Assembly (NCBI GenBank): GCA_964036665.1
Contig: OZ038528.1
Span: forward strand, 24,229,245-24,293,244
DNA: 64,000 nt
Direction: 5' to 3'
Source: Gordius sp. MW1
Taxonomy: Eukaryota > Nematomorpha > Gordioida > Gordea > Gordiidae
The translations under genes and the position numbers were made by a program. Below are positions 4,411-64,000 of this stretch, piece after piece; position 1 is the first letter of the stretch; the number at the start of each line of letters is the position of its first letter. The notes under the pieces were generated by a model that was given only the letters and a program-made list of their open reading frames with translations, was not told the DNA's origin and made no database searches.

Positions 4411-4534
4411 TATCTTTTGAAAAGAAACTGTGAAAAATATTAAACATATGTTTTTTTGTTGTATGACTTAGTTTCATAATTTTATATCTTAAAATAATTA
4501 TTTTAATTACAATCGCAATGTTTATGAATAAAAT

Positions 4535-24191: not shown

Positions 24192-24199
24192 ATTACAAA

Positions 24200-25060
24200 T
24201 GGTATTTTTTTAATTTTGATTTATATGTTTTTTCATAATTATAAAAAAAAATAGGTTTTTTTCTAAATTTCAATTTATAAATTTTAATATGAGGTTTTAC
24301 GAGAGGTTTATTATTTTTTAAATCGATTAAAAACCGAAAAAATAATTAAAATATAGATTGCTTCTTTCATTTTTCAATGGAAAAAGGCACGTCTTGACAA
24401 TTAAAATTTATAATAATAGATATATAGTTGCCAATCATTTAATATTTTTTAATCATAATATTAATTATTATCCAACTGGCTTAGATTAAGATATTTAACT
24501 TATAAAGTTATTTGATTTTTTAAATTAACCGTCACTACACTTATTAGTCCATATTTTTAAGATTTTAAATATAAGTTTATTTTTTAATTTTCCATTTTTA
24601 TTATCGAAATTGATATGAGTAAATACACAATATATAGTTTAAAAAATTTAATTTACCTTTATCTAATACCTTTGTGCATTAGCGACGCCTTGGGACTAAG
24701 TGGTCTTCCATTAGAGCCTCTGAGTTTCACTTAGCGCATTTATTGTCAAGTCCGAAAATTGACACTCAAAAACTTTTAATAATTTATCATGATTCATAAA
24801 TTTTAAGTGGCGTTTTTAAACTAAAAGAAAATATGTGGCAAGATCTGAAATGAGTTAAGGAATCAAAAACTTATTAAAAATTTAAAAAAACAAACAAAAT
24901 ATTTTACATTTCAGACTTATATTTTTATAGTAGAAAAATCCACAAAAATAATATTTAGGTTAATTTTCAAGCGAAAAAATTTTTGACGTCGTATTCGAAG
25001 TTTTGACTATTTCCAGTATATAATAAGGGTAATTTTCTCGTTGAGTGGTTAACAAAAAAA
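24200..25060. other. Intergenic upstream of the GPCR
   Basis: Very AT-rich. No gene or repeat recognised apart from the T run serving the tRNA terminator at 25,054-25,060. Confidence 0.4.
25054..25060 (-). terminator. Pol III terminator of tRNA-Cys
   Basis: Seven T residues on the minus strand begin three bases after the tRNA 3' end. Confidence 0.85.
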
Positions 25061-35040: not shown

Positions 35041-38000
35041 TCAGATTGAAATGGTAGGTTTGCTGCTTGAAAAATGATTCTGCCCATACAAACTCTGTAG
35101 TTTTTCGATTTCTTTGTTGTTTACATAGACGTAGTCATTGGCTAAATTTTTAGCATGAGTCACTGTAGTTACGCGAGTAAACCCGTTGGCCAAGGCAAAT
35201 GCATCTAAAGAAGCGGCCCCTTGGTGAACGTGGACGAATTCCACTGTCATCACCTTTAAAATTATTATTCGATAATTATAGTTATTTGATAAAATCAGTA
35301 TTTAATGATAATATAGTCCAATATCGATTGTGTGATTGATTACATCCCCTAATCTGGCAAATAATTACGATAGAAACAACTTAAGTTGATCCATAATATT
35401 TTTAATTTTCTTCCAAACCCTCAGATTTTTAGATGAGAGGGTGGGAATAAAAATGTGAAACAATAAATAATTTTATAGGTCTGTAGACATTATCTATAGG
35501 ATTATATAACTATTTTTATAAATAAATTTAAAATAGGATGGAATTGGAAATTTAGTTTCGAAAAACGTTAAAAAGGCCACTTTTTATATTGCTCAGTCAG
35601 TGTAAATTTTTTTATCATAATTAATTACCAGACTACGGAATACTTTTCTGTAAACCTGCGTTATTATTATTCACAATTACAATAATTTAAATAGTTGATG
35701 ACAATTTAAATAAAGAGAGTAAAAGATGAGAGGATTAACAAAATTAAATTAAATTTGTTTAAAAATTTTGGCTCAAGCCTTATGAAACTGAAAAAAAGGC
35801 CGGTCCATTTAACTAATATCCTTTGAAAATTTAATTTCTAGCTATTATAAAATATTAAGATGGTTTTGTATTTATGCATGGGGGTTTCCAGCAGTGGAAT
35901 AAAGGGCAACAATGATTTAGGGAGGGGCAAAATAATCATTTTTTGAAATTTAGCCATAATTTTAATAAATTTTAACAAATTTTTGGATTTAGAGTAGGGC
36001 GCCACCTTCCTTTGGCTACGCCCATGGCGATGTATTTACTTTAATATATAATTTATCGAAGGGTATAGTCATCAGGATGTCCAATTCGAAGCCTTCCACG
36101 TCCAACGAAAAGAAATCGACGACCGTTTGATTTAAGGATAGCATAATTGAGTAGAGGGAAAAACAGGGCAAGGCTTGTCCTATTTTTTCCGATTTTAAGG
36201 TAACCGTTGGTATTTGGATGCGACCCAGATTGAAATGTTGATAAAAAGGTAACTAAATTAAAAATAATAATATTAATAAATCAAGGTTGTTTTTAACGTT
36301 TTTCAGCTGAGTTTAGATGTACAAACAACAATTATTATATAGCTACTAATGGCTAAAAAAACGTAAATACGATATCAGAGTGTTTCGCGAGCACTAGTAA
36401 ATTTTGAGCAAGCTTTTATTTCAAAAAAGTGTATCTTTTGGAAATAACATTCGCATGCAATGTTTATACTCTTTAGGGCTTGTCTTAATATCGAATTCAG
36501 TTTCAGATTCAAGTCGCGCCAATTAGTCATTTTGGTTTTGATAGTTAAAAACGTTTTTTGTTTATTCCAACTTTTGAGAATAAATCTAAACTTTGCCGCT
36601 ACCAAAAATTATAAAAACATTTAACCTTTAGGCTTGGGAAAATTTTTGCATCTTACAAAATCGCTGTTATGTTATGCGTCTGAAATGTAAATCTGCTGTG
36701 AATTCTAACTTATTACGCGGCTATGTCATAACCCATACGAATCCGATATTAGGACAAGCCCTAACTCGTTACTTAATGATTCGTCAAAGTAGTTACCTCG
36801 CATTAAAATGGGATTAGCCGTGACTGAATATAATAACACAAATTAACGAAGTACCATAGATGGGTTGGGTGAAGGGCTCAGACAAACGTTTGCTAAATAC
36901 GATTTTCGATGTTTCGTCAAGGCCAATTTAAAATTAGAAGGATCAGCTTCGACCAACAACCCCGTCCAGTTGTATTCCCGTTCCAGGTAAAGGGAGTTAG
37001 ACCGTGTTTCCCCGTCCAGCGCACCACATTCTAAGAAAAATCCACCTCCCTGAAAATTAACGACATACCATAGACCATTAGGAATATCCTCTTTTAAAAT
37101 GCCAAAAAATATTAGTAAAATTTGCGAAATCTTTAAAGGGGGGGGGGGCAAGGATTGGATTTAAAGAGGGCAATAATGATTTAAGGAGGGGCAATAGTAA
37201 TTTTAACCAAAACTATTTTACGATTTTGAAAATTTTTTGGATTTAGAGGGGGGTAGCCCTACTCTTAAGCGGGGGTATTAGCTATTGGAAACGGAGAAAA
37301 TTAAGAGCAAATACCCCACTAGTGAATTCAATTGTCGGTGGTGTAAGGGAATACATAAAAATCGTCATGCTTAATTCGTTTATTCGGCAAACACTAAAAG
37401 TACTTAGAATGACGACTCCCCATTTTCTTCAATTTTTGCCCAACAATTTTAACAAAATCGCGATGAAATTATATTCTTAAGAAAATTGGTGTTTGGAATA
37501 GAATTTTATACTTTATCCGCAAACAAACTTTTAAAATTTTATTGCTTATATAAAAGCCATTGTTAAATATTAATTAATTAAACGGCATTTTGCCATGATA
37601 GTTTACCTTATAAGGAATCTTAAAATTAATAAAACCCAATTCTTTCTAGACATGGCAAAAATAAAATTTGAATCAAAATCGAAAAACTTTTCTGCGTTAC
37701 CTACCCCTATCTAAGCAAAGCAGAATCTCATGGAAAGGATTGCAATTATAATTGAATCAAGTTATGTAGAATATTAAAAATATTTGGTCCAAGAATACAA
37801 AAAAATATATGGAAAAATTAGGAAAGAGCCTTACCAAAAACTTTATCTTTAGAAAATTTCACTTACATTAAGATTAAATTGTGTTGCGTTGCGTGCGCTA
37901 CGTGAGGGGGGGGGGGGGGGTTTGGTTTAATTCCTATTCTATTCACATTTTAAGTCTTTGTAAAATCCAATTTTATTAGAGATTAACAAAACTAATTTTG

Positions 38001-39341
38001 CTACATTTCGATAAAAAACAAATTTTTACTAACAACCTTACATTTTACACATGGCAAATATTTATAAATTTAAAATTCTTCTTTTCACAGTAGCTACTCG
38101 ACTAGCGCAGTTATGATAGGGACTAGAGAGGACCATTATGATTTAGGGAGAGGCAAAATGACAAATTTTTGAAATTTTAACCGTAATTACATGAAATCTT
38201 ATGGAATTTATGTATTCTTAATTTAATTCCCATTTGAGTTCAATGGTATGCGCCATAAAATGGAATAATTTATCGCCTTTTATACGATATTTGTAATTTA
38301 GTACATTATTAAGATGTTCATTGAGATAGTCTGAAAACCTTGGGAAAACGCGAATTTATGCGAAAAAAAACTTTTTGAAGGTGTGCAAAGAAATTACAAA
38401 GCATATAAGCCTTAAAATATACCTAATATAGTTTTACCGTTAAATTGAGATATGGTTTGACCGCTTCTATTTGACCCATGGAAAAATCTTTTTTCATTGG
38501 CTCATTAAGCGCGTATTCTTCAGATGATGGCTAAATTTGCAATTTTTTCGAAACGCGAAAGTTATTATTTTACTTGGTGTATAAAATTTTTCCTCAGAGC
38601 CTTTATGACTATAACATCATCTGCCAATAACTTGGGCCCAACAAATAATATATTTATCATGGAGGGATCCAACGGTGAGGTAGTAATAGATTTTATTTCA
38701 AACTGAGTCTGCTGTGTACTGTGTAATTTAAACAAAAATAACCAATAACCATAGCTTTATATTTTAATTTGAAGATGAAATAAATTTAATTATAAATCAT
38801 CAGATTATCTAATTATTATAGTTTAATCATTTGTCTTATAAAATTTTTCAATTTTTTACAGTTACTTATATGGTAACGTGCTTTGTCCTTTTAATTGTTT
38901 ATGTTATATTTATGGTGATAAAGTGCCTATGATAATTTGAAAATGTTAAGTCAACAATTATTGCTCTAGTGATTAAGCATCTTGATCTTAAACGATAATT
39001 TTATATGTAATAATAAAAAATTGGACAAAAAACTAGAATAATATTGAATCATGGTTTTTTTAGCTATTTTTTTACCTTTTATTTCGATCTATATCCAAGG
39101 AATTATCTATTTGGCTATATGCTTTGCTTCCGTATGCATTACTTGATTCTGATCTTTGAATTGCTGAATTATTTAATTTTGCGAATACCTCTGGACCCAT
39201 ATCGCCGGTATAAAATGCAAATAACGGATATTTAACTGTCTTCAATTTACTGAAAATCATCGCAGATAATACTATAGCCGATATGCCTAGGAATAATACG
39301 AACAACGCTTTAGGTAGATTCATTCGAGATTTGGAATTCAT
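35041..39341 (-). CDS. FkbM/Star-METTL24-like methyltransferase, paralogue 1
   Basis: Exons on the minus strand: 39341-39076, 38718-38574, 37049-36855, 36252-36040 and 35253-35041 with the stop; phases agree. Exon 1 encodes a short cytoplasmic tail and one membrane segment (LFVLFLGISAIVLSAMIF), so a type II membrane protein is likely. Exon 2 gives LFVGPKLLADDVIVI. Exon 3 opens the FkbM domain: GGFFLECGALDGETRSNSLY, then GLLVEADPSNF and NVCLSPSPNPSM. Exon 4 carries FFSLDVEGFELDIL, the conserved acidic motif of Methyltransf_21. Exon 5 gives VEFVHVHQGAASLDAF. Relative to family members about 25-30 residues before GGFF are missing, so one small exon between 38,573 and 37,050 is unassigned. The family includes SAM-dependent O-methyltransferases, but Star-type animal members have no proven substrate. 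Confidence 0.85.
35877..36025. mobile_element. CATGGGCGTAGCC hAT-like MITE, unit 1
   Basis: Left end CATGGGGGTTTCC is damaged, right end GGCTACGCCCATG intact. It lies 15 bp downstream of the fourth exon of paralogue 1 and is shared with unit 2 at 46,209. Confidence 0.8.
36476..36761. mobile_element. PIF/Harbinger-like MITE, unit 1
   Basis: TTA|GGGCTTGTCTTAATATCG ... CGATATTAGGACAAGCCC|TAA. Shared with unit 2, so it predates the duplication. Confidence 0.75.
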
Positions 39342-39349
39342 TGTTTGGA

Positions 39350-40715
39350 AGCTAATATTGGAAGTTAGTAGTATTTTAACTGTGAAAACGGCTGCTGATT
39401 GCCGTTGCCGATTTTAATATTTGTAATAGGCCCGAGGACATTTAGTTCAAATAATCAATTGCCCAGCTCTCACCTTAGATGTGTTTTGCGTACTTTTGGC
39501 TATTTTGTTTTTAGCTTGCGCCATTTTAAGGCGGCCGCGAAGTAAGAATGTAAAAATTTTATGTATTTAACCGATCAGGCGCTTGCGGTAATAGAAAGTG
39601 CTGTATGCTGTGTGTGTCTTCTAGAAATGTAATAAAAATTTTAGTTACTAAGCCAATATCATTTATTTACATTGGCTCAATGCAATCGGGTTATTGATAA
39701 CTATCGTTCTAACCCACAAATACAAAATTTAATATGAGGCCAAGTATAACATATTTACCGCTGCTCCCTTAGCTTATGTAAGGTCAAAGACGGCTATATC
39801 AAATTTTGAATCACTTTTTTGTCGAATTGAGAAGGGAATATAACGTGAAACATGGGTTTATAACGCGATGTAAAACCTTGAATTAACGGTAATGAGCGTT
39901 GGAGGGATTATGAGAGATATTCATATTGAGACATGATTGAACACGATATTGAAAATATAATAATTTTTAATAATTTTATAATATTATAAAATGTTTAATT
40001 GAATTAATTAGAATTTAGGTCCTAAAGGAGAATTGATTATATTGATTTAAACCGCATTTAACTGGTCGATATAAATAGGTGCTATAGCGGAAACGAAAAA
40101 TAACACCTGCTATCAGTGTGGTAAACTGTCCAAAAAGTATTATTTAATAACCGATTTAGAGGTATAAATTCATTAAACATTTATAATTTTTCAAAAAAAA
40201 ATTAAGCCTTAGGCAAACTAGGCAGAGGAAAACAACAAAACTAGATTGAATAACGGTGCACGATGCTTAATCTTTTAAACGCCCAATTATTCATATAAAA
40301 CCATTTTATATCATTAATTATTAATAGATTGTGAAGGATCTATTCTGCAATATGGCATGATAAACATTAAACCTAATCTTTTAAATAGCCTAGCCGTAAT
40401 TTAATAAAATTATTTTAGATCAAATTATGATAAGCTATCCCAACATTTTTGACCTTAAGTTAATTAAAAATGCATTTGTCTATCTAAATTATCAAATCTA
40501 AAATCAAAAGGCGTAATGTGTCCCCAATCTAACTAATAAATAAATTATTCCCTTTTCCTATTTTATTTCCTTGTTAAATCTTGTCTATTATAAGTTTTTT
40601 TTATCTATTTAGGCACACAATAAGATCCATTATATTAAAAATACAATGTTTGATTATGAATCTAATAAATAATAACTTCGAAGTTGTCTAATCAAATATG
40701 TAAACTGTCAATAAT
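39350..40715. other. Upstream region of paralogue 1, shared with unit 2
   Basis: No gene recognised. Sequence similarity with 50,100-51,985 continues throughout, so the copied unit included at least 1.3 kb upstream of the start codon. The promoter is presumably here, but no core motif is convincing. Confidence 0.5.
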
Positions 40716-45300: not shown

Positions 45301-48300
45301 TCAGATTGTAATGGTAGGTTTGCTGCTTGAAAAATGACTCTGCCTATACGCACTCTGTAGTTTTTCGATTTCTTTGTTGTTTACATAAACGTAGTCATTG
45401 GCTAACGAGTTAGCATGAGTCACTGTAGTTACGCGAGTAAACCCGTTGGCCAAGGCAAATGCATCTAAAGAAGCGGCCCCTTGGTGAACGTGGACAAATT
45501 CCACTGTCATCACCTTTAAAATCATAGAGTATTCGTTAGTCATAATTATTTGATATAATCAATGATGCGGATTTTATTATGGATACAGTTCTACAAATAT
45601 CCATTGTGCGATCTAGTGCTGTAAAAAAGGCTGGGTTTTGTTTGGTCGACTAAAACCAACGGTCGACCAAACAAATCCAAACCGTTCTTACAACACTACT
45701 GTGATCCTATCCCGTAATCTGAAAAATAATTACGATAGAAAGATTTAGGCTGAGCAATAATGTTGTTAGTTTTCCTTCCAAACCCTCAGTTTTTTAAATG
45801 AGAGGATGTTAAAATAAATTTAAAATAGGATGGAAAGTTAGTTTCAAAAACCGTTAAAAGGCCATATTTTACAACTTTAATCCCACATAAAATCTACAAA
45901 CTTTGGAGAAAAAAAACTATAAAGTTTATTGCTAAGTGTAAATTTCTCTATCAGAATTGATTGTCAGACTACGGAATGTTTTTCTGTAAATGTCCAAACT
46001 ATTTACAATTTGAGATACTTTGAATAATTGATGAGAATTAAAATAATGAGTTAGTGAAGGTGGGGGGCTTAACAAAATTAAATTAAATCAATTTAAAAAT
46101 TTTGACTCAAGCCTGTTGAAACTGAAATAATAAGGCTGCCCATTTAACTAATTTCCCTTCGAAAATTCAATTTCTAGCTATTATAAAATATTAAGACGTA
46201 TTTATGCATGGGCGTAGCCAGCATTGGATCTAAAGGGGGGCAATAATGATTTAGGAAGGGGCAATGTGATCATTTTTTGCTTAGCCATAATTTTAATAAA
46301 TAACAATTTTTGAATTTAGAGGGGGGAGCCGCCCCTCCTTGCACCCTTCTTGGCTACGTCCATGGCGATGTATCTACTTTAATATATAATTTATCGAAGG
46401 GTATAGTCATTAGGATGTCCAATTCGAAGCCTTCCACATCCAACGAAAAGAAATCGACGACCGTTTGATTTAAGGCTAGCAGAATTGAAAAGAGCGGGAA
46501 ACAGGGCAAGGCTTGTCCTGTTTTTTCCGATTTCAAGGTAACCGATGGTATTTGGATGCGACCCAGATTAAAATGTTGATAAAAGGGTAACTATAAAAAA
46601 TAATAATAATAAAATCAAGGTTGTTTTTAACGCTTTTAGGCTGAGTTTGGATGTACAAATATAACAATTATTATATAGCTAATGATGACTATAAAAAAAC
46701 GTAAATACGTTATCAGAGTGTTTCGCGAGCTCTAGCTATTTTGTTTTAATAGCGAGCTTTTATTTTAATATTCGCATGCAATGTTTTATACTCTTTAGGG
46801 CTTGTCTTAATATCGGATTCCGATTTAAAACGCGACAATTTATCTGTCTAAATCTCCGAATGGGTCTAACTCGGTTGTAATTATTAATATTTTTTTGATA
46901 GTTAAAAACTCTTTTATATTTCAACTTTTGAGATCAAATCTAAACTTTGCTGGTACCTAAAATTATAAAAACAATTAACCTTTAAGCTTAGGAAAATTTT
47001 TGCATCTTATAAATCGTTGTTATGTTATGCATCTGAAACGTAAATCTGCTGTGAATCCTAAGTTAAGACACGGCTAGGTTTTAGCCCGCATCCGATATTA
47101 AGGCTAGCCCTTACTCGTTACTTAACGATTGTCATCAAAGTAGTTACCTCGCATTAAAATGGGATTAGTCGTGACTTAATAATAACACAAATTCACGAAA
47201 TACCATAGATGGGTTGGGTGAAGGGCTCAGACAAACGTTTGCTAAATGCGATTTTCGATGTTTCGTCAAGGCCATTTTAAAATTCGAAGGATCAGCTTCG
47301 ACCAACAACCCCGTCCAGTTGTATTCCCGTTCCAGGTAAAGGGAGTTAGACCGTGTTTCCCCGTCCAGCGCACCACATTCTACGAAAAATCCACCTCCCT
47401 AGTTATAAAAATTAATGACGTACTCATAGGCCATTAGGAATATCCTTGCCCAAAATGCTGCTCTTAAACGTTAAAAAAATATTTGTAAGATTTGCGAAAT
47501 CTTTCAAGCGGCGATTAGAATTATACTATTGGAATTTGGAAACGAAGAAAATTTGGAGTAAAACCCAATTTACGACTGAATTCAAAGGTCAGGGCTACAT
47601 AAAGGCCTTTAGGAATTCTCTTTATAAAAGTCTTGCTCTTAAACTTTAAAAAAATATTAGTAAGATTTGCGAAATCTTTCAAGTGGGGGGATATTAGAAA
47701 TAGGCTATTGGAGACTGAAGGAAATCTATACCCCACAATTTACGATTGAATAAAGGGTGTCTTGGTTAATTCGTTAATTAGGCAAACACCAAAAGAAGTA
47801 CTTAAAATGACTGTTTCCCAATTTCTTTAATTTTTGCCGAAAAATTTGAAAAAAATCGTAATGAAATTAGTAATAAAATTGATGTTTGGCATAGAATTCT
47901 TAGTATATCCTAGTGTATAAAAACGGCTGGGTTTTGTTCGGTCGACCTTTTGTTTTAGTCCACTAAACATCATCAAAAAAGTTTTTTGGTCTCTTAATGT
48001 ACAGTAGGCCTCTACGAAGAAAAACATACCAAAAAATCTTTGGTCAATTTATGTTTAGTCGACTAATTTAGGTTCAAATAATAAAATAAAATTAAACGGC
48101 ATTTTACCATGATAGTTTACCTTATAAAGTATCTTAAAAATAATAAAACCCAATTCTCTCTCGACATGGCAAAAATTAATTTGAATCAAAATCATTAGCT
48201 AAACAAAGCAGAATCTCGTGAAAAGGGTCGGATTTCCAATACATTAGTTTTGAATTTATTTAAGTCAGGTAGTATAGTATAATAAAAATACAAAACTCAA

Positions 48301-49928
48301 TTTTATTCCAATAATATAAAAAAAAATAGAAAAAAATGGAGAAGAGCTTGTCCAAAAACAGTATCTTTAGAAAATTTCACTGAACATCAAATTCGGCTGC
48401 GTGCGTTTCGTGAGAGGAATTTCAGGTTAATTTCTATTATTAAATTTTGAATCAAATCTATCTATTCACATGGTAAGTATGTCCATTTTATAGAAATTAT
48501 CAAAATTAATTTTTATACATTGAGGTAAAAGTCCTGTTTAAAATTTCTTTATAAAACAAATTTTACCAAGAAACTATAACAACCTTACACCTTGCATATG
48601 GCAAATATTTACAAATCCGAAATTCGTTTTTAAAGGGCACCCAAGGGCGTAGCCATAATCGGAACGAGAACGGCAATTATGATAGGGGCAAAATAATAAT
48701 TATTTGAATTTTTGGATCTTAAATAATTTATGTATTGAGGGGAGGGGGGGGCTATAGCCCCTCCCTGCCTCCCCTTGGCTACGCCGGTGGAAGTCACTTT
48801 ATGTATTCCCTTTTGTGTTTAATGGGATGCGCCATAAAATAGTAAATTTATCGCCTTTTATAAGATATTTGTTATTGATATTAAGATGTCATCTTAATAA
48901 CTAAATTCCTCGGGGAAATGCGAATTTATACGAAACAAACTATTTGAAGGTGTGTAAAGAAATTCCAAAAATTAGCAGGCAAGCCTTAAAAATATACGTA
49001 ATATAGTTTTACCGTTAAATTGAGATATGGTTTGACCGCTTCTATTTGACCCATGGAAAAATCTTTTTTCATTGGCTCTTTAAGCGCATATTTTTCAGAT
49101 GATGGCTAAATTTGCAATTTTTTCAAACGTAAGTTTTATTATTTTACTTGGTGTATAAAATTTTTTCTTAGAGTATTTATGACTATAACATCATCTGCCA
49201 TTAGTTTGGGCCCGACAAATAATGTATTTATTAAGGCGGGATCCAACGGACAGGTAGTTATGGATTTTATATCGAACTGCGTCTGCTGAGAACTGTTAAA
49301 TTTATAAAAGAAAAATAATAAGTAACCATAGCTTCATATTTTAATTTGATGATGAAATGAATTAATTATACATCATCAGATTATCTAATTATTTTAATTA
49401 TTTGTTCTAAAATTTCTCATTCAAACGTGATTTGTTAACTGTTTATGTTATTTATGTTGCTAAAGTGCATAGGATAATTTGATGCTAAGTCAACAAATAT
49501 TGTTTAAGCATCTTCATCTTGAACGGTAATTTCATACATTTCCAAAATAACGTTGTATAAATCAAAAACTCGCACTCATTATAATTTAGTAAATAGAATA
49601 AAAATAAAAAATTGGCCATAAAATTAAATATTATTAATTTTGGTGTTACTAGCTATTATTACTTTTTATTTCGATTTATGTTCAAGGAATTATCTATTTG
49701 GCTATATAATTTGCTTCCGTATGCATTACTAGATTCTGATTTTCGAATTGTTGAATTAGCTAATTTCGCAAATTCCTCTGGACCCCCATCGCTAGTATAA
49801 AATGCCAATAATGGATACTTAATTGTCCTTAATTTGCTGAAAATCATCGCCGATAATACTATAGCTGATATGCCTAAGAATAACACGAACAACGCTTTAG
49901 GTAGATTCATTCGAGATTTGGAATTCAT
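45301..49928 (-). CDS. FkbM/Star-METTL24-like methyltransferase, paralogue 2
   Basis: Exons: 49928-49663, 49292-49148, 47398-47204, 46590-46378, 45513-45301 (stop). Each is exactly as long as in paralogue 1 (266, 145, 195, 213, 213) and all are open. An in-frame ATG at 49,931 would add one residue. Motifs: membrane anchor LFVLFLGISAIVLSAMIF, GGFFVECGALDGETRSNS, SLDVEGFELDIL, VEFVHVHQGAASLDAF. Changes from paralogue 1 are conservative (for example FCPLDPALINTL against SPLDPSMINIL in exon 2). As in paralogue 1 a short exon before GGFF is unassigned. Intact splice sites and frames in both copies suggest both are, or recently were, functional. Confidence 0.85.
45614..45698. mobile_element. TAGTGTTGTAAAA-family MITE, private to unit 2
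   Basis: TAGTGCTGTAAAAAAGGCTG ... CCGTTCTTACAACACTA, 85 bp. Unit 1 has no counterpart near 35,340, so it is younger than the duplication. It lies upstream of exon 5. Confidence 0.8.
46209..46364. mobile_element. CATGGGCGTAGCC hAT-like MITE, unit 2
   Basis: Ends CATGGGCGTAGCC and GGCTACGTCCATG. Counterpart of 35,877. Confidence 0.85.
46798..47110. mobile_element. PIF/Harbinger-like MITE, unit 2
   Basis: TTA|GGGCTTGTCTTAATATCGG ... CCGATATTAAGGCTAGCCC|TTA: a clean TTA direct duplication, supporting the PIF/Harbinger assignment. Confidence 0.8.
47913..48066. mobile_element. TAGTGTTGTAAAA-family MITE, private to unit 2
   Basis: The left arm TAGTGTATAAAAACGGCTGG and GGTTTTGTTCGGTCGACC are clear. 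The right arm is partly lost (GTTTAGTCGACTAA). Absent from unit 1. Confidence 0.65.
48641..48788. mobile_element. CATGGGCGTAGCC hAT-like MITE in unit 2
   Basis: CCAAGGGCGTAGCCATAATC ... CCTTGGCTACGCCGG. Unit 1 shows a remnant at about 38,120-38,190 (GATTTAGGGAGAGGCAAAAT), so this insertion may be shared but decayed there. Confidence 0.65.
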
Positions 49929-51394
49929 CATTTAGTAGCTGTTTCAAAAAATGATGGAAAATTATAGTATTGCAAATATATCTTGTGAAATAAATTAACG
50001 TATTGTAGTATGATGTATTTATGTATTTATTGTTTAAAACGATCTAAAACGTGTCCTAATGTATTCGAGAATCGTATATGCGTATGATTTGATATATCTT
50101 TTTGTTGTATATGTTATGAACACTTAACAGCAGCTAATATGGGAAGTTAGTAGCATTGAAGCTGTGAAAAATGTTGCTGATTGCCCAATGCCGAATGTTT
50201 TATTTATAATAGGTCCGATGACATTTAGTTCAAACAATCAATCGCCCAGATCCCACCTTAGATGCGTTTTGAGTATTTTTGGATATTCCATTTTTGCCTT
50301 GCGCCATAATAAGGCGATTGCGAAGGAGTAATGTTAAAATTTTAGGACTTTTAACCGAAAAAGAGCAGTGTGTGTGTCTTCTAGAATGCCTTAAAAATTT
50401 GTCATTTATTTACATTGGCTCATTGTGACGTTTAATTACTATGCAATCGGTTACTTTTTGTACGTTCTAACCCACAAATAAAAAATTTAATCTGAGGTCA
50501 AGTATGATATATTTGTTGCTGCTCCCTTAGCTCTTAAAGACTGCTATATCTATATCCAATTTTGATTCACCTTTTTTGCCGAATTGAGAAGGAGAATATA
50601 ATGTGAATCATGGGTTTATAACGCGATGTAAAACCTTGAATTATGAGCCTTGGAGGGATTATGAGAGATAAACATATTGAGACATGAAACACGATATTTA
50701 AAATATAATAATTTTTATTAATTTTGTAATATTAAAATTTAGGTCAAAAAAAGGAGAATTGTTAATATTGATTTAAACCGCATTTGACTGGTCGATATAA
50801 AAGGTGTTATAGCGGAAACGAAAAATAACACCTGCTATCAGTGTGGTAAACTGTCCAATAATTTTTATTTAATAATCCACTTAGAGGTATAAATTTAATA
50901 AAAATTTATATTTTTCAAAAAACTTTAAGCCTTAGGCAGACTAGGCAGAGGAAGGCGTTTGGGTTAAATATAGTTTTCAATGCCATCTATACATATCTTG
51001 ATGCTCAAATTTATCATAAAAATAATTAAAAATAATGAAGAATTAACTTTTTATGAACTATTACTTTATAAAATAATATCAATATCTCTAACAAAACTCG
51101 ATTGATTGACGGTGTAGGGTGTTTAACCTTTTAAACATGACCCAATTTATTACATGAAAACATTGTTGCTAAATCAAAAAAGAAATCTAATTCCTTAAAC
51201 GTTTTTTAAGCAATTTAATAAATTTTATATCTACCCCTCATTTTCAATTTCAGAAAGTTGTTTTCATTCAAAAACTCTAAAAAAGGGAATTACGGAGGAA
51301 AATGATTATATTTGATATATTATTTTGTATTTTTGAAAGGGTATTAATTATTAATAAATTGTACAAAATTATTCTGCAATATGGCATGATAAAC

Positions 51395-52520: not shown

Positions 52521-53099
52521 TTATTAATTGCTATGCAATTTATGGGATCGTTTTTTGGTGTCCGTCCGTCGTCCGTCGTCCGTCGTCCATTACCCTCCCT
52601 ATCTATTTGCATTGGGTATATTAGGTTATCGCTTTTTTTAAATTAATGGATGAGAAAGAGGTGCCCCACCCCTCATCTCTATCTCCCTCGCTGTGTTATT
52701 TTTTGAATTAATGCATAAGAGGTGCCCCACCCCTCATCTCTATCTCTCTCGGTGTGTTATATATAAGATTTGTTAAATTATCTATTATATAATAAACATA
52801 AATAAAAGTTGTTTACTTTTAATTGCTATGCAATTTAACTAGTTTTTGTTTTATATAATAAACATAGATAAAAGTTGTTTACTTTTAATGCTATGCAATT
52901 TAACTAGTTATATAATAAACATAAATAAAAGTTGTTTACTTTTAATTGCTATGCAATTTAACTAGTTTTGGTTATATAATAAATATAGATAAAAGTTGTT
53001 TACTTTTAATGCTATGCAATTTAACTAGTTATATAATAAACATAAATAAAAGTTGTTTACTTTTAATTGCTATGCAATTTAACTAGTTTTGGGGTTGGA

Positions 53100-54210
53100 A
53101 TCCCGGAGTTTTTTTTGACTCTTATGATTGTTCTTGTTACTATCATTGATAATAAGAATTTTTGGCCGTCCGCTGGCTGCTGACCAATGAAAAAAATGAC
53201 CATTGGCCAAAATGTGAATCGAAATTATTTTTTTCGTTTTTTTTGACTATTATGATTGTTCCTGTTTCTACCATTGCTATTATGACTTTTTGGCCGTCCG
53301 CTGGCTGCTGACCAATGTTATATAATAAACATAAATAAAAGTTGTTTACTTTTAATTGCTATGCAATTTAACTAGTTTTTGGGTTAGAATCCCGGAGTTT
53401 TTTTTGACTTTTATGATTGTTCTTGTTACTATCATTGATAATAAGACTTTTTGGCCGTCCGTTGGCTGCTGACCAATGAAAAAAATGACCATTGGCCAAA
53501 ATGTGAATCCGAGTTTATTTTTTCGTTTTTTTTGACTATTATGATTGTTCCTGTTACTACCATTGCTATTATGACTTTTTGGCCGTCCGCTGGCTCCTGA
53601 CCGATGGAAAAAAATGACCATTGGCCAAAATGTGAATCGAAATTATTTTTTTCGTTTTTTTTGACTATTATGATTGTTCCTGTTCCTACCATTGCTATTA
53701 TGACTTTTTGGCCGTCCGCTGGCTGCTGACCAATGAAATAAAATGACCATTGGCCAAAATGTGATTCGAAAACTTTTATTTCGTTTTTTTTTGACTATTA
53801 TGAATTTATATCCACTTTTATTGTGTCCTGGCTGCTGACCAATGGAAAAAAATGACCATTGGCCAAAATGTGATTCGAAAATTTTTTTTTCGTTTTTTTT
53901 ACTCTTGTGAATTTATATCCACTTTTACCGTGTGCTGGCTGCTGACCAATGGAAAAAAATGACCATTGGCCAAAATGTGAATCCGAGTTTATTTTTTCGT
54001 TTTTTTTGACTATTATGATTGTTCCTGTTACTACCATTGCTATTATGACTTTTTGGCCGTCCGCTGGCTCCTGACCGATGGAAAAAATGACCATTGGCCA
54101 AAATGTGATTCGAAAATTTTTTTTTCGTTTTTTTTTGACTTATGAATTTATATCCACTTTTACCGTGTCCTGGCTGCTTACCAATGAAAAAAAATGACCA
54201 TTGGCCAAAT
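53100..54210 (+). repeat. Tandem array in copy B
   Basis: About nine units with GGCCGTCCGCTGGCTGCTGA, CCAATGG...CCATTGGCC pairs and TTTCGTTTTTTTTGACTATT. One unit is interrupted by a 60-bp subrepeat at about 53,320, as in copy A at about 17,825. Confidence 0.85.
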
Positions 54211-54934
54211 TTTATATATAACCTAAAAATTTATTATAGATGGTCTAACAGACAGCCAACTATGTAATATATATTTTTAACCTTATAAATGCATATATAT
54301 TTTTTTATTGGGTTAATATATTTCATTTAATTAGATTGTGATTTCATAGAAAACCTAAAAAGTAATATTTAAAAAAATAATATAGGTATTAGATTCTAAT
54401 TTACGATAAAATATATCGATAGAAACTAACACAAAATTCGAAACCTCCTTCAAAGGTATAAGCATAGCCCGTTATTTCTAATTAAATTGAATCTACTATT
54501 AAACTCAAACACGAATTGTACTTTATTAGATGGCGCGCGTAAGTTTATATAATTAGTAAAATTTTTCTACGTGTCATAGATATTACACCGCACGTGTGGC
54601 AGGGAAATGTCCGATATTTTTAAAATGAAAAGGTATTTTAGGAATCTGAAAAGGTTATTTTACCCCCGGCCGCCCTGGGCACCTACGGGTAAAGTTTCGA
54701 GCGAATCGGGCTGGTAGTTTAAGAATTTAGCCCTTTTTAAAACTAAAAAAAACTTTTTTTTTAATTTTTTTTTACATTAAATTAATATTTTGTTTTTGTT
54801 AATACCATTGATAATATGACTTTTTGACCGTCCGCTGGCTACTGACCGACGAAATATATTGATTTTCTAAACATAAAACACAACTTTATTATTTCATCAT
54901 CTATATAAATAACATAATAACTTCTACTATTTTA

Positions 54935-55010
54935 AAGCCAGCATGGTATAGTGGTTATAGCGCAGGCTTGTGAACTGGATGTGTAGGGTTCAAGTCAGGG
55001 AGGGGACAAA
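54935..55010 (+). pseudogene. tRNA-like segment inside copy B
   Basis: TGGTATAGTGGTTATAGC and GGTTCAAGTC at tRNA spacing, with loop TTGTGAA. A few substitutions relative to copy A lie in the stems (GCAGGC against GCCGGC). Confidence 0.6.
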
Positions 55011-55744
55011 TTTTTTTTTTAATTTTTTTAAATTAAATTAATATTTGTTCATGTTAATACCAATGATAATATGAATTTTTGACCGTCCGCTGGCTACTGA
55101 CCAATAAAAAAATGACCATTAGCCAAATAAATCGAAATTTTTTTTCGTTTTTGAATTGGTTAACATTGATAATTACCCTATGTCCTCCCCTACAAGGGCC
55201 TATAACTAATTAACTAATTATTTTGCATCTAATACCCCCTATAGGCATTCTCGCCCCTTCCCACCTTTCTCGCCCATAAATTGCATAGCAAATATGCTAC
55301 GTTTATACGGAGTATAGAAGAGTTCCCCCTTCCCCTCTTCCCTTCCCCTCTTCCCTTCCCCTACTCCCCTTCCCTTCTCCCCCTTCCCACGAGGGCCGAA
55401 GGCCCGAGTATATTTTAATTAGATATAGAGTTTCTGTCAATTCCAGCTGTGAGCTCCATTAGTGGGGGCACTTTCAGTAAGGCAAGCCGTATTATAAGGA
55501 CCAAATTGTAGCCCAATAAAATAAATAGCGTTTTACTCTTAAAGACAAAATTAAAGTGTAATTACAACATTTTTATAAGCCAAAAAACTTGAAACAATGT
55601 GGGCGTGTTTTAAATTGGTGCGGACCTGGGACGGAATTTCATGGTTAAATCTACGGGTCAGGTAAGGGCCAAAAAAATTTTATTTGTGGAAGTATGACTT
55701 GACTCGGGCCTCAAATTAATCAGACCAGGTCCGATATGAGCATG

Positions 55745-57227: not shown

Positions 57228-60200
57228 ATGAAAGATCAAGGCGTCCACACGTTACCAAGCCAACAAAATAATTCAAAAATCATTAAAAATCCATCACTCA
57301 TAGAATATCAATTCACAAAAAATGAACGGGAGAATAGTTGGAAAGAGCTTTTTGAGGTTATTTATTACAATTTCGCATTCTAATTTCTATTTTTTGGTAT
57401 TTTTTAAAATAAACATGGTATACTAATTTTTCGATACGCTACAAATGCAAACATAATATCTGTTTAGTAGTGCGATCTATTTAAAGTTAAATTAACATGA
57501 TTATTATACAGTTGATTGACAATAAAGGATTAATCCAAAAATTAAAATATTTCAGCTTTTTATGTTTTGTTGACTCCTTTGACACTAAGAATTTACAAAT
57601 TAAAGCTTTTTTTGCTTTAAATACTCGGTGAGATTTTGTTAAATGTGCGGGCATTCATGAACGTAGCCAAGATTGGAACGTTTTACAAATTTCTGGTTTT
57701 AAAAGGGGCAGTTGCCCCTCCGGCTTCCCCCTGGCTACGCCCATGTAAGCATAGACTTTACACTGCTCGTGCCATATGTTCCATATGGTAAGTTGTAAGT
57801 CAAATTTTTCTCCATTTTGAAGACATCAACTGGTGTATATCAACTAAGTCATTTAACGCTACAACAGTCAATTTACTCACTAGTTTACAAATTTGAGCGA
57901 ACGTCATTAAATTAATATTATACAAAATATAGATGACGTTATATTATTAAACAAACTTTCATCACAGTTTTTACATTTTTTATTTTTATGTGTTGTGTAA
58001 ATGATATTTATTTTAGATTAATGTGTTTGATATCTACCCAATTTAATATTTTTTATTTACTTTTAAGAATTTAATTTACAAAAAATACTAATAAATAATC
58101 TTTAAATTACCATGTTATGATTAAAATGGTGGAAAAGAGGTACACATTTTGTGCGTCGATGAGCAGACTATCGAGTCTATGCATGCAAGCATCATTAAAA
58201 CATAATTGTTAAGAAACTCATTTTATTTAGTTTCCTCGAAAAAAGAGAAATAACTATTTCCTTTTTTATGGGAAAAGGAGTTGCTTTTTATCTTACAACT
58301 TTACAAACTACCTTTAATCTATCAAAACTTTTATTCATATACGAGGTAATTTCTTTGCTGTCTTATTCTTAAGCGCTTCTGAAATTAGACGATGACGCTA
58401 CTTATACTTAAAAAAATATTATATATGCATGATGAACCGAATAAAAAAATTAATATAATTCATTCCTTTTTACCTCTTTAAGTTATTTGTAGCATAGGCT
58501 TGTAAAAAATAAGTTTCAATGTAATTATGCACCTTAATGATAATAATTAAATATCAAAGTAACAACCGTTTACGGGAATACGACTACCTTCTCTTAAAAA
58601 TAATAGTTTTCATGCCCCCCCCCTAAAGTAATTCAATATTTTGGCATATTTTTATCGCATGCCTAGACGTTGGAGGAAACGACGGACGATCTGTTTGGAG
58701 ATCTGAGTCGCGACAATGGGAAGGACATTGGAAATCGGGATCTTAATAGGTATCGAAGCATATTGCCCTACGACCATAACAGGGTCAAACTTACCACCAA
58801 GGCTAACGATTACATTAATGCCAGCTTAGTTAAGTGTACTCTAAGCACGGGAACGAGTAGTAGCTCTAAAAAGCCGATGCAAAAAAGTTATATTGTCACG
58901 CAAGGACCTCTGGCTAATACGATACCCGACTTCTGGTTGATGGTGGCACAACAAAAGGTCCGTGTCGTGGTTATGCTGTGCAACGTGGAAGAAGATGGAA
59001 AGGTTGTTAACTATACATAATTCCCTTAAACTGCTTTTATTTAAGCAGGTTAAGAGTGTGTATGGCTAAAATTACATCTTTTAGTTTAAAAAGAATCCAA
59101 AATCCAGTAGCGTTTTATTTTAATTACCCATGGGCGTAGCCAGATTTGGAATTAGAGAGAGGCAATAATGATTTAGGGAAGGGCAAAATAATAAATTACA
59201 AACTTTTAGCCATTATTTTAATACATTTCAAAGAATTTCAGGATTAAGAGGGGGCAGCAGCCCCTCCTAGCCTCCCCCTGGCTACGCCCATAATAACATC
59301 AAATATTATTTGTTACTTAGACATCTTCTCTTATTAGCATTCTTAAGTTAAATTATTCTTATTGCTACATAAGTCATGAACCTACGATTTTTACTTTTGC
59401 AGCAGTTAAATAATATCGAAACCATAGGCGTCTGCCTCCCTTTAAATCTAATAATTCTTTAAAAATTCAAATAATTATGACTAAAATTTCAAAAAATTAT
59501 CATTTTGCCCCTCCCTATATCATTATTGCCTCCCTCTGAATTGAATCCCAGGGCACGCCCATGATCAAAACTCAAAATAAAATTTAAGTGTTTTTGTGTT
59601 AGGGATATTATAAAATTATATGAGTAATATTAATACCCCTCTCTGTATTTTAAAGGGCTAAATCTAATTTACTTAATTTTATATATACTCCAGAGTAAAT
59701 GTTGGCAGTATTTTCCCAACGTTACGCCAAGCACTGGGAGTGGTTCTTCAACCTATCGCTCCATGGTAAACAAACTATCGAGTGAGTTACCGAAAGCAAC
59801 TCCTAAAGACATAGCTGCTGCCCCCTGTGAAAACGCAATTTATGGGACTGGCCTAAAGGATATGACCTATCTAAGCTTCCAGGAGATCGGAATGCGAGTT
59901 TCTTTTAAAACTTTTAGCCCAATCGATTTTGGGGTAAATTGTCATTAATTTGTCATGTATTCGGTTCTCAATGTCAACTTATTCAAGACATAGGGCCTAT
60001 TGAATTCTGTTTTTATTTAACCCTTATTTATCATAAATATTTAATAAGGGCACTTTCTTGGCTATTAACGATTTTTTTATTATTATTTTAACATTTTTTG
60101 ATACCTTACCTTCACTATCCCTTTACCCAAATCCTATGTTTTATACACTTGGTCTCTGCTTTTTTGATTAATCAGATTATTAATTTTTCCTATTACATTG

Positions 60201-63200
60201 TTGTTTTATGTCTTCCAGGGTTTCTTTCAGAAAAAATGCTCCGGGGGGGTATTTTCAACTTTCGGGGGGGGGGGGGGGGTAAAAAATTTTTTAATTGCTA
60301 AACTATTTGTATAATATTTACTGATTTTTATTGGTGATATAAGTGATAAAATAGATGATCTTTTTTGCAAGCAAATTATCATTAGTTAATATACATTTAA
60401 AATGACCAATATTTTGTTAGTAATATAAATATAAATACCATCCTTTTCATTATAACATTGAATGGAACAAACCAGAGTTTTTTCTACAGAACAGACATAA
60501 TTAAAATTATTCCAAATTAAATCATATTTACCATCTTTTTTATTAGGCTTTTCCTTTTTACTAAAGTAGTGTAAAAGAGTACTTTTAAATTTACCAGACA
60601 TCTGCAATTCAAAATAAGCATATTATATCAATAAAAAACAAACAATAGAATCTATTATTAATAATAATTCTTTTTAAGTTTATAAGTATGATAGTGATTT
60701 AATAATTCTAAAAGCATTTATTCATGTTTATTTACCTATTGATATTTTTTAATGAAAGATAATTTGTAACTTTCAAGATTGTAAAAAATGCCTATTTAAA
60801 ACTCGTTTAAATTAGGGTTCACAGATGTTAAAAAATGATGTCTATGAATGATTTCCACCTTATTTGAAAAAAAAATTTAATTTCGCCAATTTTATATTTT
60901 TTTATTGACAAATTAAAATAATTTATTGAATTTCAATTTTAGCCTATTAATATAATTTATGATTCATGATGGAACTTGAGTTCATTCTTCAATCAAAACT
61001 CTCCGGGGGGGGGGGTGAAATTTCTGGGGAGGGGGTAATACCCCCCCCCCTCCCCCGGCTCCCCCCTGAAAGAAACCCTGTGTCTTTCTGTCAGTGTGAT
61101 GCATAGAAATTTAAGCTAATAAATGCGTTACGAAGAAAATAGATTTTAACAAAAACATAACCTTTACTGTGCCTTTTAGAGTAAGGAGGGGAAAAATGAT
61201 TACGTAATTCGTGAGCTAGAGATGGCAGGGCCAAAAGCCACGAACCCGGACCCTTGCACGATCTATCATTGTCATTACTTGACGTGGCCTGATTTTGGAG
61301 TGCCGAATAGTACTGCGTTCATACGATTTTGGAAGAGCATAAGAGCTATTGAACGTGAGCATTCAGACCTAAATGAAATACCCTGGGTAGTTCATTGCAG
61401 TGCTGGGGTTGGGAGATCAGGAACTTTAGTCATTATCGACGCCTGTTTACGCATAGTAAAATTCCCATTTAAACGTGCATTATAAATTATTGATTGTAAT
61501 TTAAAAGCTATTTAGATACTACTAGACATGGGCATAGCCAGGGGGGGGGGGCAGGGAGGGGAGGTTGCCCCCCCTTTAAATCCATTAATTCTTTATAATT
61601 TTATCCAATTATGGCTAAAATTTCTAAAAATTGTCCTTTTGCTCCTCCCTAAATTTTAATTGCCCCCCTCTAGTTCCAATCCTGGCTACGCCCATGCTAA
61701 TAGATATTATAAATAGTGTATAAGAGATCGAATGATGTAATTTAAAAATAACATAGTACACAATGTTGGGCTGGATTTATGTATAGGGGATGCGATAAAT
61801 GTTTACCTTAATTTTTCTCCAAAATAATGGTTTTAACTTTATAACCTATTTTACGGTGTGACCGAATGGTAAAGCATTTGTTTAAACGATTAAGAAAACT
61901 TTAAAAGATCGTTTATTTTGTTTCGCATAAGGATCTAATGGTGTTAAATGTCAAAACATTAAATTCCCATTTTGTGTCAGAAATTTTATTTTGTTTATAA
62001 ACTTCATTTTATTGATTTATTAAAGGTTTTCTCATTTAATTAGATCCTTGTAGTTTCACCTTTTAAAATACTTTGCTTGTCCTGATTGTGATACCTTAAA
62101 AATAAAACGGTAGAAAAATAGCCTTTAAAGTTTGTCCTTTAAGCTAGAGATGGATGGCGGGCTCGATGGAATAAACATACAAAATTTAATGATCGAAACG
62201 CGCAAATACCGCCGTGGTATGATTCAAACTGCAGATCAATTGCGCTTCGTGTATGTCGTTGTACTAGAAGCTTTTAAAGAATTAACTAAACCCAAGGATG
62301 TGGTAATCTATGCTTAAAAACTTTTTCAAATTATAGTAATTTTATTCTTATCGTACTTCATACAAACCCTAATATACCTGAATATTATATTCAGCCAAAT
62401 TATTTGCCTATGTAGTACTATAAAACATATATTTAAAGACGATGACAAAATTTTAACTAATTTTATAAGCCATTTATAAATATTTCCACATTTGGGAAAG
62501 TTGCACATGCAGAGGCAGTTTATAACGTCAACTTGAATTTAAATTGTCAAATTTGGACATAATCTTAAAAAGAGATGAGTAAAATGGGGTTAAAACGAAA
62601 GATGTAAAAATGCAAATTTTAAAAATTAACAGGGATCTTGTTTGCCCAAATCTTAAATTAAAAGTTTTTATAGGCAAACTTCTAAAATATAAACTATCTA
62701 TATCGGATAGTGATCATAATTAAGGTTTTGTGAATAAATTCACCTTTCGTATCATCTAAATTTGATATGTATTGAATAATTAGTTTTGCCGTGGTATGTC
62801 TTAACCGAGTCCTACATTAAAGATTTCAGCATTTTTATTTCGGACACATTAGTGACAAATTTTTAAGAGCTACATTTTAGCATTAAAGTCTCTAATTTTT
62901 AACTGTCTAATAATAACGTGAGTTTTAATTCGAACAGAAGACACTAAGTACCTCGAAAGACCGAGTGGTGCCAGAGAAAGTCTCTAAGCCTACAGAAACT
63001 ATTGTCCATCCAATTCAAACTAAAACGACTAAAACAGAGGATCGTAGCAATGTTGATCAAAAAGGATCGAAATCAGTCAAGAAATTATCCGATACTAACG
63101 CGGTATTTCTGCAAAAAATAGGAACGATTGACGACCTCATTACAAAATACGACCAAAAAGGAGAGTGGACCCTCATAAACCAAGTTTTTAATTTTTTTTT

Positions 63201-63714
63201 TTAAATTTGAGTTTAAACTATTATTTTTAGAAATTAGACGAAGCCGAAGTAAAAAATATTAAAAAAGAGGGAGAATCAGAAGTATTAGTAGGGTTAAAGC
63301 CAGAAAACGTGGCAAAGAATAGGCCAACCGAAAGCATTCCTGGTAATTAAAGCTCTTCTTTTCAAGTCTATGATTTTCCATAAAATTAAATAACTCAAAA
63401 TAATAATTAAACATATAGAAAATGAAGATCGGATTAAACTGTTGAAGAAAGAAAGCGATTACGTCAATGCCAATAATCTTTTCATTAAGCCGTTAAGAAG
63501 AACATACATACTAGCCCAGGTATTCATTCCTAATGTTCTTCAAGGCAATAAACTCAAGCAAATACGTTATTAAATCTCGTGTTAATTTTTAATTATTTTT
63601 GTTTTTTGTTTGAAGTCACCTATGTCAAACACGTGGGAAGATTTTTTAATGATGGCTTGGGACCAGGAGTGCTCGGTGATAGTGATGCTTTGCCTTTTGC
63701 AAGAACAGAACAAT
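57228..63714 (+). CDS. PTP1B-class protein tyrosine phosphatase with two phosphatase domains, 3' end outside the window
   Basis: Nine exons join in phase: 57228-57356, 58667-59002, 59694-59933, 61180-61455, 62144-62302, 62938-63183, 63231-63342, 63419-63519, 63616-63714. Exon 1 (IEYQF...NERENSWKELFE) aligns with the PTP1B N-terminal helices. Exon 2 has NRYRSILPYDHNRV, NDYINAS and TQGPLANT. Exon 4 has TWPDFGVP (catalytic Asp) and the P-loop HCSAGVGRSGT (catalytic Cys). Exon 5 has RRGMIQTADQLRF, the Q-loop form of the PTP1B/TCPTP class. Exons 6-7 are a charged linker. Exons 8-9 restart a phosphatase domain: DRIKLLKKESDYVNANN, TYILAQ, SPMSNTWEDFLMMAWDQE, IVML. The first domain should dephosphorylate phosphotyrosine. 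Whether the second is active depends on sequence beyond 64,000. Three donors are weak (GTTATT, GTTGTT, GTTTTT). Confidence 0.85.
57655..57745. mobile_element. Short CATGGGCGTAGCC hAT-like MITE
   Basis: CATGAACGTAGCCAAGATTG ... CCTGGCTACGCCCATG, only 91 bp, in intron 1 of the phosphatase gene. An internal deletion derivative. Confidence 0.75.
57746..58175. repeat. Dispersed repeat, third copy
   Basis: GCTCGTGCCATATGTTCCAT ... CTCCATTTTGAAGACATCAA ... AAAATGGTGGAAAAGAGGTA ... GATGAGCAGACTATC matches 21,500-21,935. Confidence 0.55.
59129..59292. mobile_element. CATGGGCGTAGCC hAT-like MITE
   Basis: CATGGGCGTAGCCAGATTTG ... CCTGGCTACGCCCAT in intron 2 of the phosphatase gene. Target duplication not clear. 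Confidence 0.8.
59424..59562. mobile_element. CATGGGCGTAGCC hAT-like MITE, left end truncated
   Basis: It enters at CATAGGCGTCTGCC with most of the left end lost, and ends GGGCACGCCCATG. The internal ATCATTTTGCCCCTCCCTA block is typical of the family. Confidence 0.65.
60216..61080. mobile_element. 865-bp hAT-like element with CAGGGTTTCTTTCAG ends
   Basis: Perfect 15-bp terminal inverted repeats CAGGGTTTCTTTCAG / CTGAAAGAAACCCTG begin with CAGGG, as in many hAT elements. Flanks ATGTCTTC and TGTCTTTC share TGTCTT. It lies in intron 3 of the phosphatase gene (59,934-61,179). G runs of 7-17 lie just inside both ends. Confidence 0.85.
60386..60607 (-). pseudogene. N-terminal remnant of a hAT (ZMYM-type) transposase
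   Basis: The 73-codon frame begins MQMSGKFKSTLLHYFSKKEK, resembling the S-x-L-x-x-F-F/Y-x-K-K start of ZMYM1-like hAT transposases, and lies inside the 865-bp element. The catalytic region is absent. Call rests on this short motif plus the element type. Confidence 0.45.
61527..61696. mobile_element. CATGGGCGTAGCC hAT-like MITE
   Basis: CTACTAGA and CTAATAGA flank CATGGGCATAGCCAGG ... CCTGGCTACGCCCATG (7 of 8 match). In intron 4 of the phosphatase gene, 70 bp after exon 4. Confidence 0.9.
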
Positions 63715-64000
63715 GTAAGTACGTGGATGAGTTAGTTATATTTAATAAACACTCGATGGACTAGGATGACGATCTAAAAGGCACCTCAATTATAATAAAT
63801 AAAAAATTACGCAAATATATAATTTTTTTATACAGGCATCCTTTAATAATAAGTTAGTCAGCGGGCAAAAAATTTAAACTAGTTTGTATGGTTGTCAACT
63901 TAATGGTGCGTGATGTGCTTATAAAGATATTTTTCCCATCTTCTTGCGATATTGGATTTGGAATATTTTTCGACAATGTGTGATAATATTCTTATAATCT

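Follow-up and report, generated by a model that had tools for sequence, protein, structure and literature searches.

Among tyrosine phosphatases, PTP1B is the archetype of the single-domain enzyme. Does its class include, in the horsehair worm Gordius sp. MW1, an enzyme with two phosphatase domains? The question is raised by a 64,000-nucleotide stretch of contig OZ038528.1 (positions 24,229,245–24,293,244 of the forward strand; hereafter the window), for which a first-pass annotation had proposed that the gene for a PTP1B-class enzyme continues into a second, tandem protein tyrosine phosphatase (PTP) domain. The gene lies on the + strand, starts at window position 57228 and overruns the window end; the same contig (C2 of a 211.8 Mb, 12-contig assembly) continues it, and we followed it into the next 29 kb, of which the first 9 kb were read completely. 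Positions beyond the window are given as extended coordinates, i.e., as the C2 contig position minus 24229244. The proposed second domain is seen in the extended sequence, and we consider it very probable that the locus is a tandem, fused PTP1B-class gene.

Exon chain and domain layout

The spliced model comprises 13 coding exons that join into a single frame of 984 residues without internal stops, ending at extended 70598. All 12 introns are GT-AG with consistent phases, and the GC content is 0.42–0.43 in the coding parts versus 0.30 in the introns. The predicted protein consists of (i) a first PTP domain (D1, residues ~38–374); (ii) a linker of 69 residues, of which 15 are Lys or Arg and eight Asp or Glu; (iii) a second PTP domain (D2), in which Trp457 is the first conserved Trp and which ends near residue 775; and (iv) a C-terminal tail of 209 residues. 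The charged linker had been put at about 120 residues in the first-pass annotation, the remainder being the N-terminal helix region of D2 ('DDLITKYDQKGEW'). The blocks quoted there for D1 (TWPDFG, HCSAGVGRSGT and QTADQLRF) and for D2 (DYVNANN, TYILAQ and SPMSNTWEDFLMMAWDQE) all lie in open frames where they had been placed, and the phases match.

When eight open frames were compared with Pfam, Y_phosphatase matched four: two in D1 (1.6e-29 and 7.3e-18) and two in D2 (63586–63735, 1e-07; 63394–63573, 0.011, which is below the cut-off). Frames of exons 3, 10, 11 and 12 gave no Y_phosphatase match.

D1 is an intact PTP1B-class domain

D1 is encoded by exons 1–5 (57228–62302), all delimited by splice sites, and is a complete PTP domain. 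Exon 1 (57228–57356) supplies the start Met and the N-terminal helix (..ENSWKELFE), with a phase 0 donor at W+5; exon 2 (58667–59002), the stronger of the two Pfam matches in D1, supplies the NRY phosphotyrosine loop, NDYINAS, TQGP and the start of the E-loop; and exon 3 (59694–59933) carries KCWQYFP and a Ser/Thr-rich loop insertion. Exon 4 (61180–61455), which holds the other Pfam match, encodes the WPD loop TWPDFG and the signature HCSAGVGRSGT, both intact, while exon 5 (62144–62302) contains the Q-loop QTADQLRF and the end of the domain.

Classical PTPs employ a Cys nucleophile, the Asp of the WPD loop as an acid, and a Gln262-type residue for the positioning of water. D1 retains the catalytic set: NRYRS (Tyr46), KSKC (Lys120), TWPDFG, HCSAGVGRS and QTADQ, together with the E-loop Glu and Lys; the equivalent of Asp48 is Ser. 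For these residues, as well as for Cys215, Arg221, Gln262 and Gln266, we use PTP1B numbering.

Judged by its sequence, D1 belongs to the PTP1B class. In comparisons with PTP1B, two receptor PTPs and the PTPs of this genome, BLAST gave D1 103 and 98 bits to PTP1B and no more than 79 bits to four receptor domains (five-domain panel), and D1 is 50.0% identical to PTP1B over 194 columns. A PDB search returned two-domain receptor PTPs at the top (best 8.9e-61; four stretches, two per domain), followed by PTP1B (5.1e-56).

D2 is a full-length domain with a degraded active site

Judged by sequence, exons 6–12 complete a second, full-length PTP fold beyond the window end. Within the window, exon 6 (62938–63183) encodes the charged linker and then the start of D2 (DDLITKYDQKGEWTLINQ), and has, like exon 1, a phase 0 donor at W+5; exon 7 (63231–63342) encodes KNRPTESIP, with Pro at the equivalent of Tyr46; exon 8 (63419–63519), DRIKLL..ESDYVNANN..TYILAQ, holds the Pfam match below the cut-off; and exon 9 (63616–63714) encodes SPMSNTWEDFLMMAWDQECSVIVMLCLLQEQNN, the accepted Pfam match of D2. 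Splice sites, with alignment for exons 6 and 7, support the first three of these. Past the window, delimited by splice sites, follow exon 10 (extended 65046–65297; CHQYWP), exon 11 (extended 66110–66340; CWPAYET and HGNLTGDR) and exon 12 (extended 66991–67435), which encodes RKGMLIDPKALRF and IDPKALRF before running into the tail. Exon 13 (extended 70270–70598), with the rest of the tail and the stop, is based on its open frame and splice sites alone, without homology support.

The aligned blocks cover D2 from its Trp helix at the N-terminus through the last helix, with loop insertions, and the spacing between signature and Q-loop is equal in D1, D2 and PTP1B in the alignment. A profile of 21 other domains scores D2 at 97.7 bits, while 200 shuffles of D2 reached at most 2.1. 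A protein search of the genome, among the best candidates scored and at E<=0.001, matched residues 389–984 nowhere else; the sole match at another locus touching residues >=381 starts in D1 and runs to 388. The best 19-residue hydropathy window of the protein (1.64, about the usual transmembrane threshold) is the core strand region FLMMAWDQECSVIVMLCLL of D2.

The first-pass annotation had suggested looking for a second HCxxGxxRS and WPD past position 64,000. Counterpart regions are present there, in degenerate form: the signature HCSAGIGRS is replaced by HGNLTGDRP, with the catalytic Cys changed to Gly, and WPD by WPA. Moreover, Tyr46 is replaced by Pro and Lys120 by Leu, and in the Q-loop QTADQ has become IDPKA, with Ile in place of Gln262 and Ala in place of Gln266. 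D2 does retain the Arg of the signature and the Glu of the E-loop. Because these active-site elements are altered, D2 is not expected to work by the known catalytic mechanism and, given a tandem PTP1B-class gene, is almost certainly a pseudophosphatase. The first-pass annotation had guessed at a pseudo-domain from the change of TQGP to AQSP; the guess was right, and the losses go further than that change implied.

A phosphotyrosine pocket in D2 is doubtful. If D2 nevertheless bound phosphotyrosine it would be a natural substrate trap, and both the retained Arg and the combination of WPA with a missing catalytic Cys, as in the mutated PTP1B construct that heads its PDB matches, are in keeping with this. 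Against such a trap, which we consider highly improbable, stand a phosphate-binding loop that reads HGNLTGDR instead of HxSAGxGR, the Pro in place of the Tyr46 wall and the loss of the Q-loop.

At a receptor-like PTP locus elsewhere in the genome (C1:21653548-21653922, - strand; L028, near + position 1758), the signature of the second domain is degenerate too (VQDFDGFSKAG). Dead second domains may thus occur in other PTPs of this genome.

Ancestry of D2

The genome also encodes, at about C8:17567400-17569450 (L032, L041-L042), a single-domain PTP1B-class gene with WPD, HCSAGIGRT and QT intact (hereafter the C8 gene). It is likely an ordinary PTP1B/TCPTP relative; in the 30 kb examined on the + strand, no D2-like match was found besides its own domain.

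Its introns and profile scores place D2 most likely in the PTP1B class rather than among the second domains of receptor PTPs; the tree does not carry this argument. A class profile that comprised PTP1B, D1 and the C8 gene but not D2 gave D2 114.9 bits in one stretch covering D2 residues 22–311, and 87.9 bits when D1 was left out as well; the best of 200 shuffles of D2 on the class profile reached 2.6 bits. The receptor-D1 and receptor-D2 profiles gave 66.8 and 50.0 bits, the listed stretch of both lying in the first half only, and a profile of 18 non-class rows together gave 80.5 bits; the profiles are unequal in size and missing parts, and small score gaps mean little.

D2 and the C8 gene have five intron sites in common, matching in both residue and phase: B in phase 1, and A (at W+5), D, E and F in phase 0. 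For the C8 gene the phases, like site A, were read by eye, and all counts refer to the PTP domains of this genome. D1, D2 and the C8 gene all have site F, which lies 10 residues past the GT of the signature; none of the 13 other assessable domains has it (L036 is not determinable). Site B, present in D2 and the C8 gene but not in D1, was found in none of nine assessable others; five of the 14 are not determinable, one of which (L031) starts at about site B. Sites C, D and E, by comparison, look like old PTP-family introns because they occur in some receptor-like domains of this genome too. The partial second domains L028, L031 and L033 were left out of the intron table and the trees.

The phylogeny of both domains that had been suggested as a check yielded, with the mutated residues of the PDB construct in the PTP1B row masked, a clade of D1, D2, PTP1B and the C8 gene (SH-like approximate likelihood ratio test 92.6, ultrafast bootstrap 85), in which the branch of D2 measures 2.7 substitutions per site. 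The first tree had placed D2 beside PTP1B (87.9/86), a grouping that vanished after masking; one of the masked residues matched the WPA of D2.

Several results pull away from a PTP1B-class origin of D2. The approximately unbiased (AU) test rejected none of the five constrained trees, including the one that joins D2 to the receptor D2s (p 0.256) and the one that puts it outside the class (p 0.368); topology tests alone leave every placement of D2 standing. Although the best PDB match of D2 is PTP1B (1.3e-28; a mutated construct with WPA and no catalytic Cys), receptor PTP-sigma nearly ties with it (3.5e-28), and the best stretch of PTP-sigma, chain residues 328–431, lies in the second of that receptor's two domains.

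These results also bear on the reading of the gene as a receptor-type tandem PTP whose upstream ectodomain exons have been missed, D2 being an ordinary receptor D2: the second domain of PTP-sigma is the best PDB match of D2 outside PTP1B, and the AU test allows the receptor-D2 placement. However, D1 and D2 both score best on the PTP1B class and both carry intron F, and an in-frame stop closely precedes the ATG of exon 1, no AG lying between the two (by eye). Among the matches listed, no fn3 domain, the one ectodomain type searched for, lies within 500 kb on the contig, unlike the tandem receptor-type locus at C2:14.80 Mb, which has two fn3 domains just upstream; and a charged linker of 69 residues is unlike the short D1–D2 joint of receptor PTPs. 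We therefore regard a receptor-type origin as extremely unlikely.

The origin of D2 had been put down to a lineage-specific fusion or internal duplication. An event within the PTP1B class agrees with the profiles and shared introns, although the tree does not force it. A recent internal duplication of D1 is unsupported and was rejected: D2 is no nearer to D1 (27.0% identity) than to PTP1B (30.8%, in a comparison in which the PTP1B row carried three mutated residues), and sites B, C and E are present in D2 and not in D1.

One gene or two

We infer a single transcript across D1 and D2. Exons 5 and 6 meet in phase 0 across an intron of 635 bases, and exons 6–8 contain no Met, the first after exon 5 being residue 536 in exon 9; a separate D2 gene therefore needs an unseen first exon. 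Such a pair of adjacent genes, or an operon-like pair, would consist of a single-domain PTP1B-like enzyme whose gene stops after exon 5, and of a pseudophosphatase gene starting from or before exon 6. Reading through exon 5 does meet a stop at the fifth codon past the donor (VIYA-stop), but a message beginning with exon 6 would be missing the N-terminal portion of the fold.

Some features weigh against the single exon chain. An ATG mini-exon at 62610, in intron 5, could in principle splice to exon 6 in phase, although its donors are poor (gtttgc, gttttt). Four of the 12 donors of our model begin GTT, that of exon 6 (gttttt) being weak, and codon usage ranks the true frame top in only five of the eight exons 6–13, in a weak test trained on D1 itself, possibly plus a short piece of the C8 gene. 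We consider two separate genes improbable and retain the tandem, fused gene.

A possible role for D2

D2 could be a decaying relic, i.e., a duplicated PTP1B domain that is still spliced in but functionless, as its degraded catalytic motifs and very long branch might suggest. This is unlikely in view of the absence of any stop from linker, D2 and tail, which together make up 604 sense codons (a chance of ~1e-21 at intron base composition, the exons having been chosen as open), the GT-AG splice sites throughout, the coding-like GC content and the full-length fold kept with its loop insertions. D2 is somewhat more probably regulatory or docking than neutral.

The overall explanation that we favor, with moderate confidence, is a duplicated and fused PTP1B-class gene in which D1 is catalytic and D2 a tethered regulator or docking module. 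A PTP1B-class gene would have been duplicated next to another and both then fused, after which D2 would have lost catalysis and diverged fast. D1 would dephosphorylate phosphotyrosine by the ordinary cysteine mechanism, while D2, on its flexible linker, may bind D1 or a partner protein and so set the activity, substrate choice or location of D1, in the manner of the pseudo-D2 domains of receptor PTPs. Since catalysis in this way is impossible and most of the phosphotyrosine pocket is lost, a tethered binding module is the most likely role for D2. Receptor D2s can act on D1 in either direction: in fly receptor PTPs, according to PMC3172300, the dead D2 reduces D1 activity in DLAR and increases it in PTP99A, and it alters the choice of substrate. 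According to a preprint (PMC11275736), a protein that binds PTP1B can control it allosterically, the sites at which pseudophosphatase domains contact catalytic domains resemble those used by allosteric ligands, and evidence for allosteric regulation of PTP1B by proteins is still scarce. More tentatively, the PTP1B class of horsehair worms may have independently re-invented the receptor-PTP layout, with D2 as a fused allosteric partner that docks via the long flexible linker.

Relation to known phosphatases

PTP1B and TCPTP (PTPN1, PTPN2) and fly PTP61F are similar to the present protein in the catalytic residues of D1, in QTADQLRF and in their non-receptor start. The known members of the class, however, have one PTP domain, whereas here there is a second, dead domain, and the basic, Ser-rich tail has no hydrophobic anchor. 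The single PTP domain that marks the PTP1B/TCPTP class (NT1) is accordingly not what we find, D2 being in the same exon chain. Members of this class have a C-terminal endoplasmic reticulum anchor or a nuclear localization signal. The tail, which is Ser/Thr-rich and of low complexity, contains none of the six best hydrophobic windows of the protein, and its basic stretch KVRRKQFIPKKSQSKSR could be a nuclear localization signal. The 16 human non-receptor classical PTPs are not known to have more than a single PTP domain each. The C8 gene, of the same class and with five intron sites in common with D2, is likewise single-domain, with its motifs intact.

The tandem receptor PTPs (LAR, PTPRS, PTPRA, PTPRE) are alike in having an active D1 followed by an inactive D2. 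They differ in that the present gene has no fn3 domain nearby (among the matches listed), its own start codon, a 69-residue linker and a D2 that is probably of PTP1B ancestry; for these reasons the D1–D2 layout is probably convergent with theirs. In PTPN14, PTPN21 and PTPN23 the sole PTP domain is dead, whereas here a live and a dead domain share one chain. PMC7959691 counts these three as pseudophosphatases among the classical PTPs and, for the 37 human classical PTPs, ascribes tandem domains to 12 receptor PTPs.

In titles and abstract starts of the open-licence literature we found no PTP1B-class or tandem non-receptor double-domain enzyme, which is not proof of absence, and those on Nematomorpha and tyrosine phosphatases held no such enzyme; relatives in other animals may exist. 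While the family itself is known, a second, dead PTP domain on a PTP1B-class enzyme looks new. If the reading is correct, nature would here provide an example of PTP1B under the control of a protein partner joined to it covalently. Such a PTP1B-class enzyme, with its dead twin built in, would add an independent D1–D2 origin to set against the receptor PTPs, and would allow one to test directly whether fusion to a pseudophosphatase leads to regulation time and again.

Neighboring features and genome context

Two further PTP domains, L001 (C5:4745463-4746155) and L002 (C8:34855335-34856048), each lie intron-free in an open frame (417 and 635 amino acids, respectively), unlike the many-exon PTPs at other places in the genome; they are possible retrocopies. 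Just downstream of the tandem gene, an open frame on the - strand (L009, 9321-9998) resembles a Ty3/gypsy-type integrase by eye. A motif whose core is GGGCGTAGCCAG or a near variant recurs at 59120–59300, 61540–61700 and other places in the window, often as inverted pairs in introns (by eye), and is probably a short mobile repeat.

Elsewhere in the window, frames on the + strand at 4532–20831 resemble a branch-2 histidine acid phosphatase gene: 20550–20831 matches PF00328 at 3.6e-09, frame 4532–4891 has no Pfam match, and we would guess that the frames form one gene. A 381-codon open frame on the - strand (23067–24209) has several hydrophobic stretches and no Pfam match; by eye it looks like a single-exon membrane receptor. 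A 2.7 kb element with internal repeats occurs twice in opposite orientation (15774–18477 and 52699–55414; 96.3% identity). A tandem duplication in three pieces (35344–40230 and 45709–50953; 10.4–10.8 kb apart, 77–79% identity) carries paired small open reading frames on the - strand (35044–35301/45304–45558 and 39075–39413/49662–49931), which have no Pfam match at 0.01.

TTAGGG telomere arrays are present at eight of 12 contig ends among those listed. The mitochondrial contig (C12, 14,798 bases; L023, L027) reads, with code 5, COX1, COX2, COX3, CYTB and others (names by eye). Searched for inverted repeats of at least 30 nt with a largest distance of 400, it contains 23 pairs of 30–108 nt, 16 of them perfect, some overlapping and many within coding frames. 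These repeats, which point to a horsehair worm as the likely source of the DNA, resemble the coding palindromes reported for Nematomorpha, in which, according to PMC6649704, inverted repeats inside mitochondrial coding genes reach exceptional scale.

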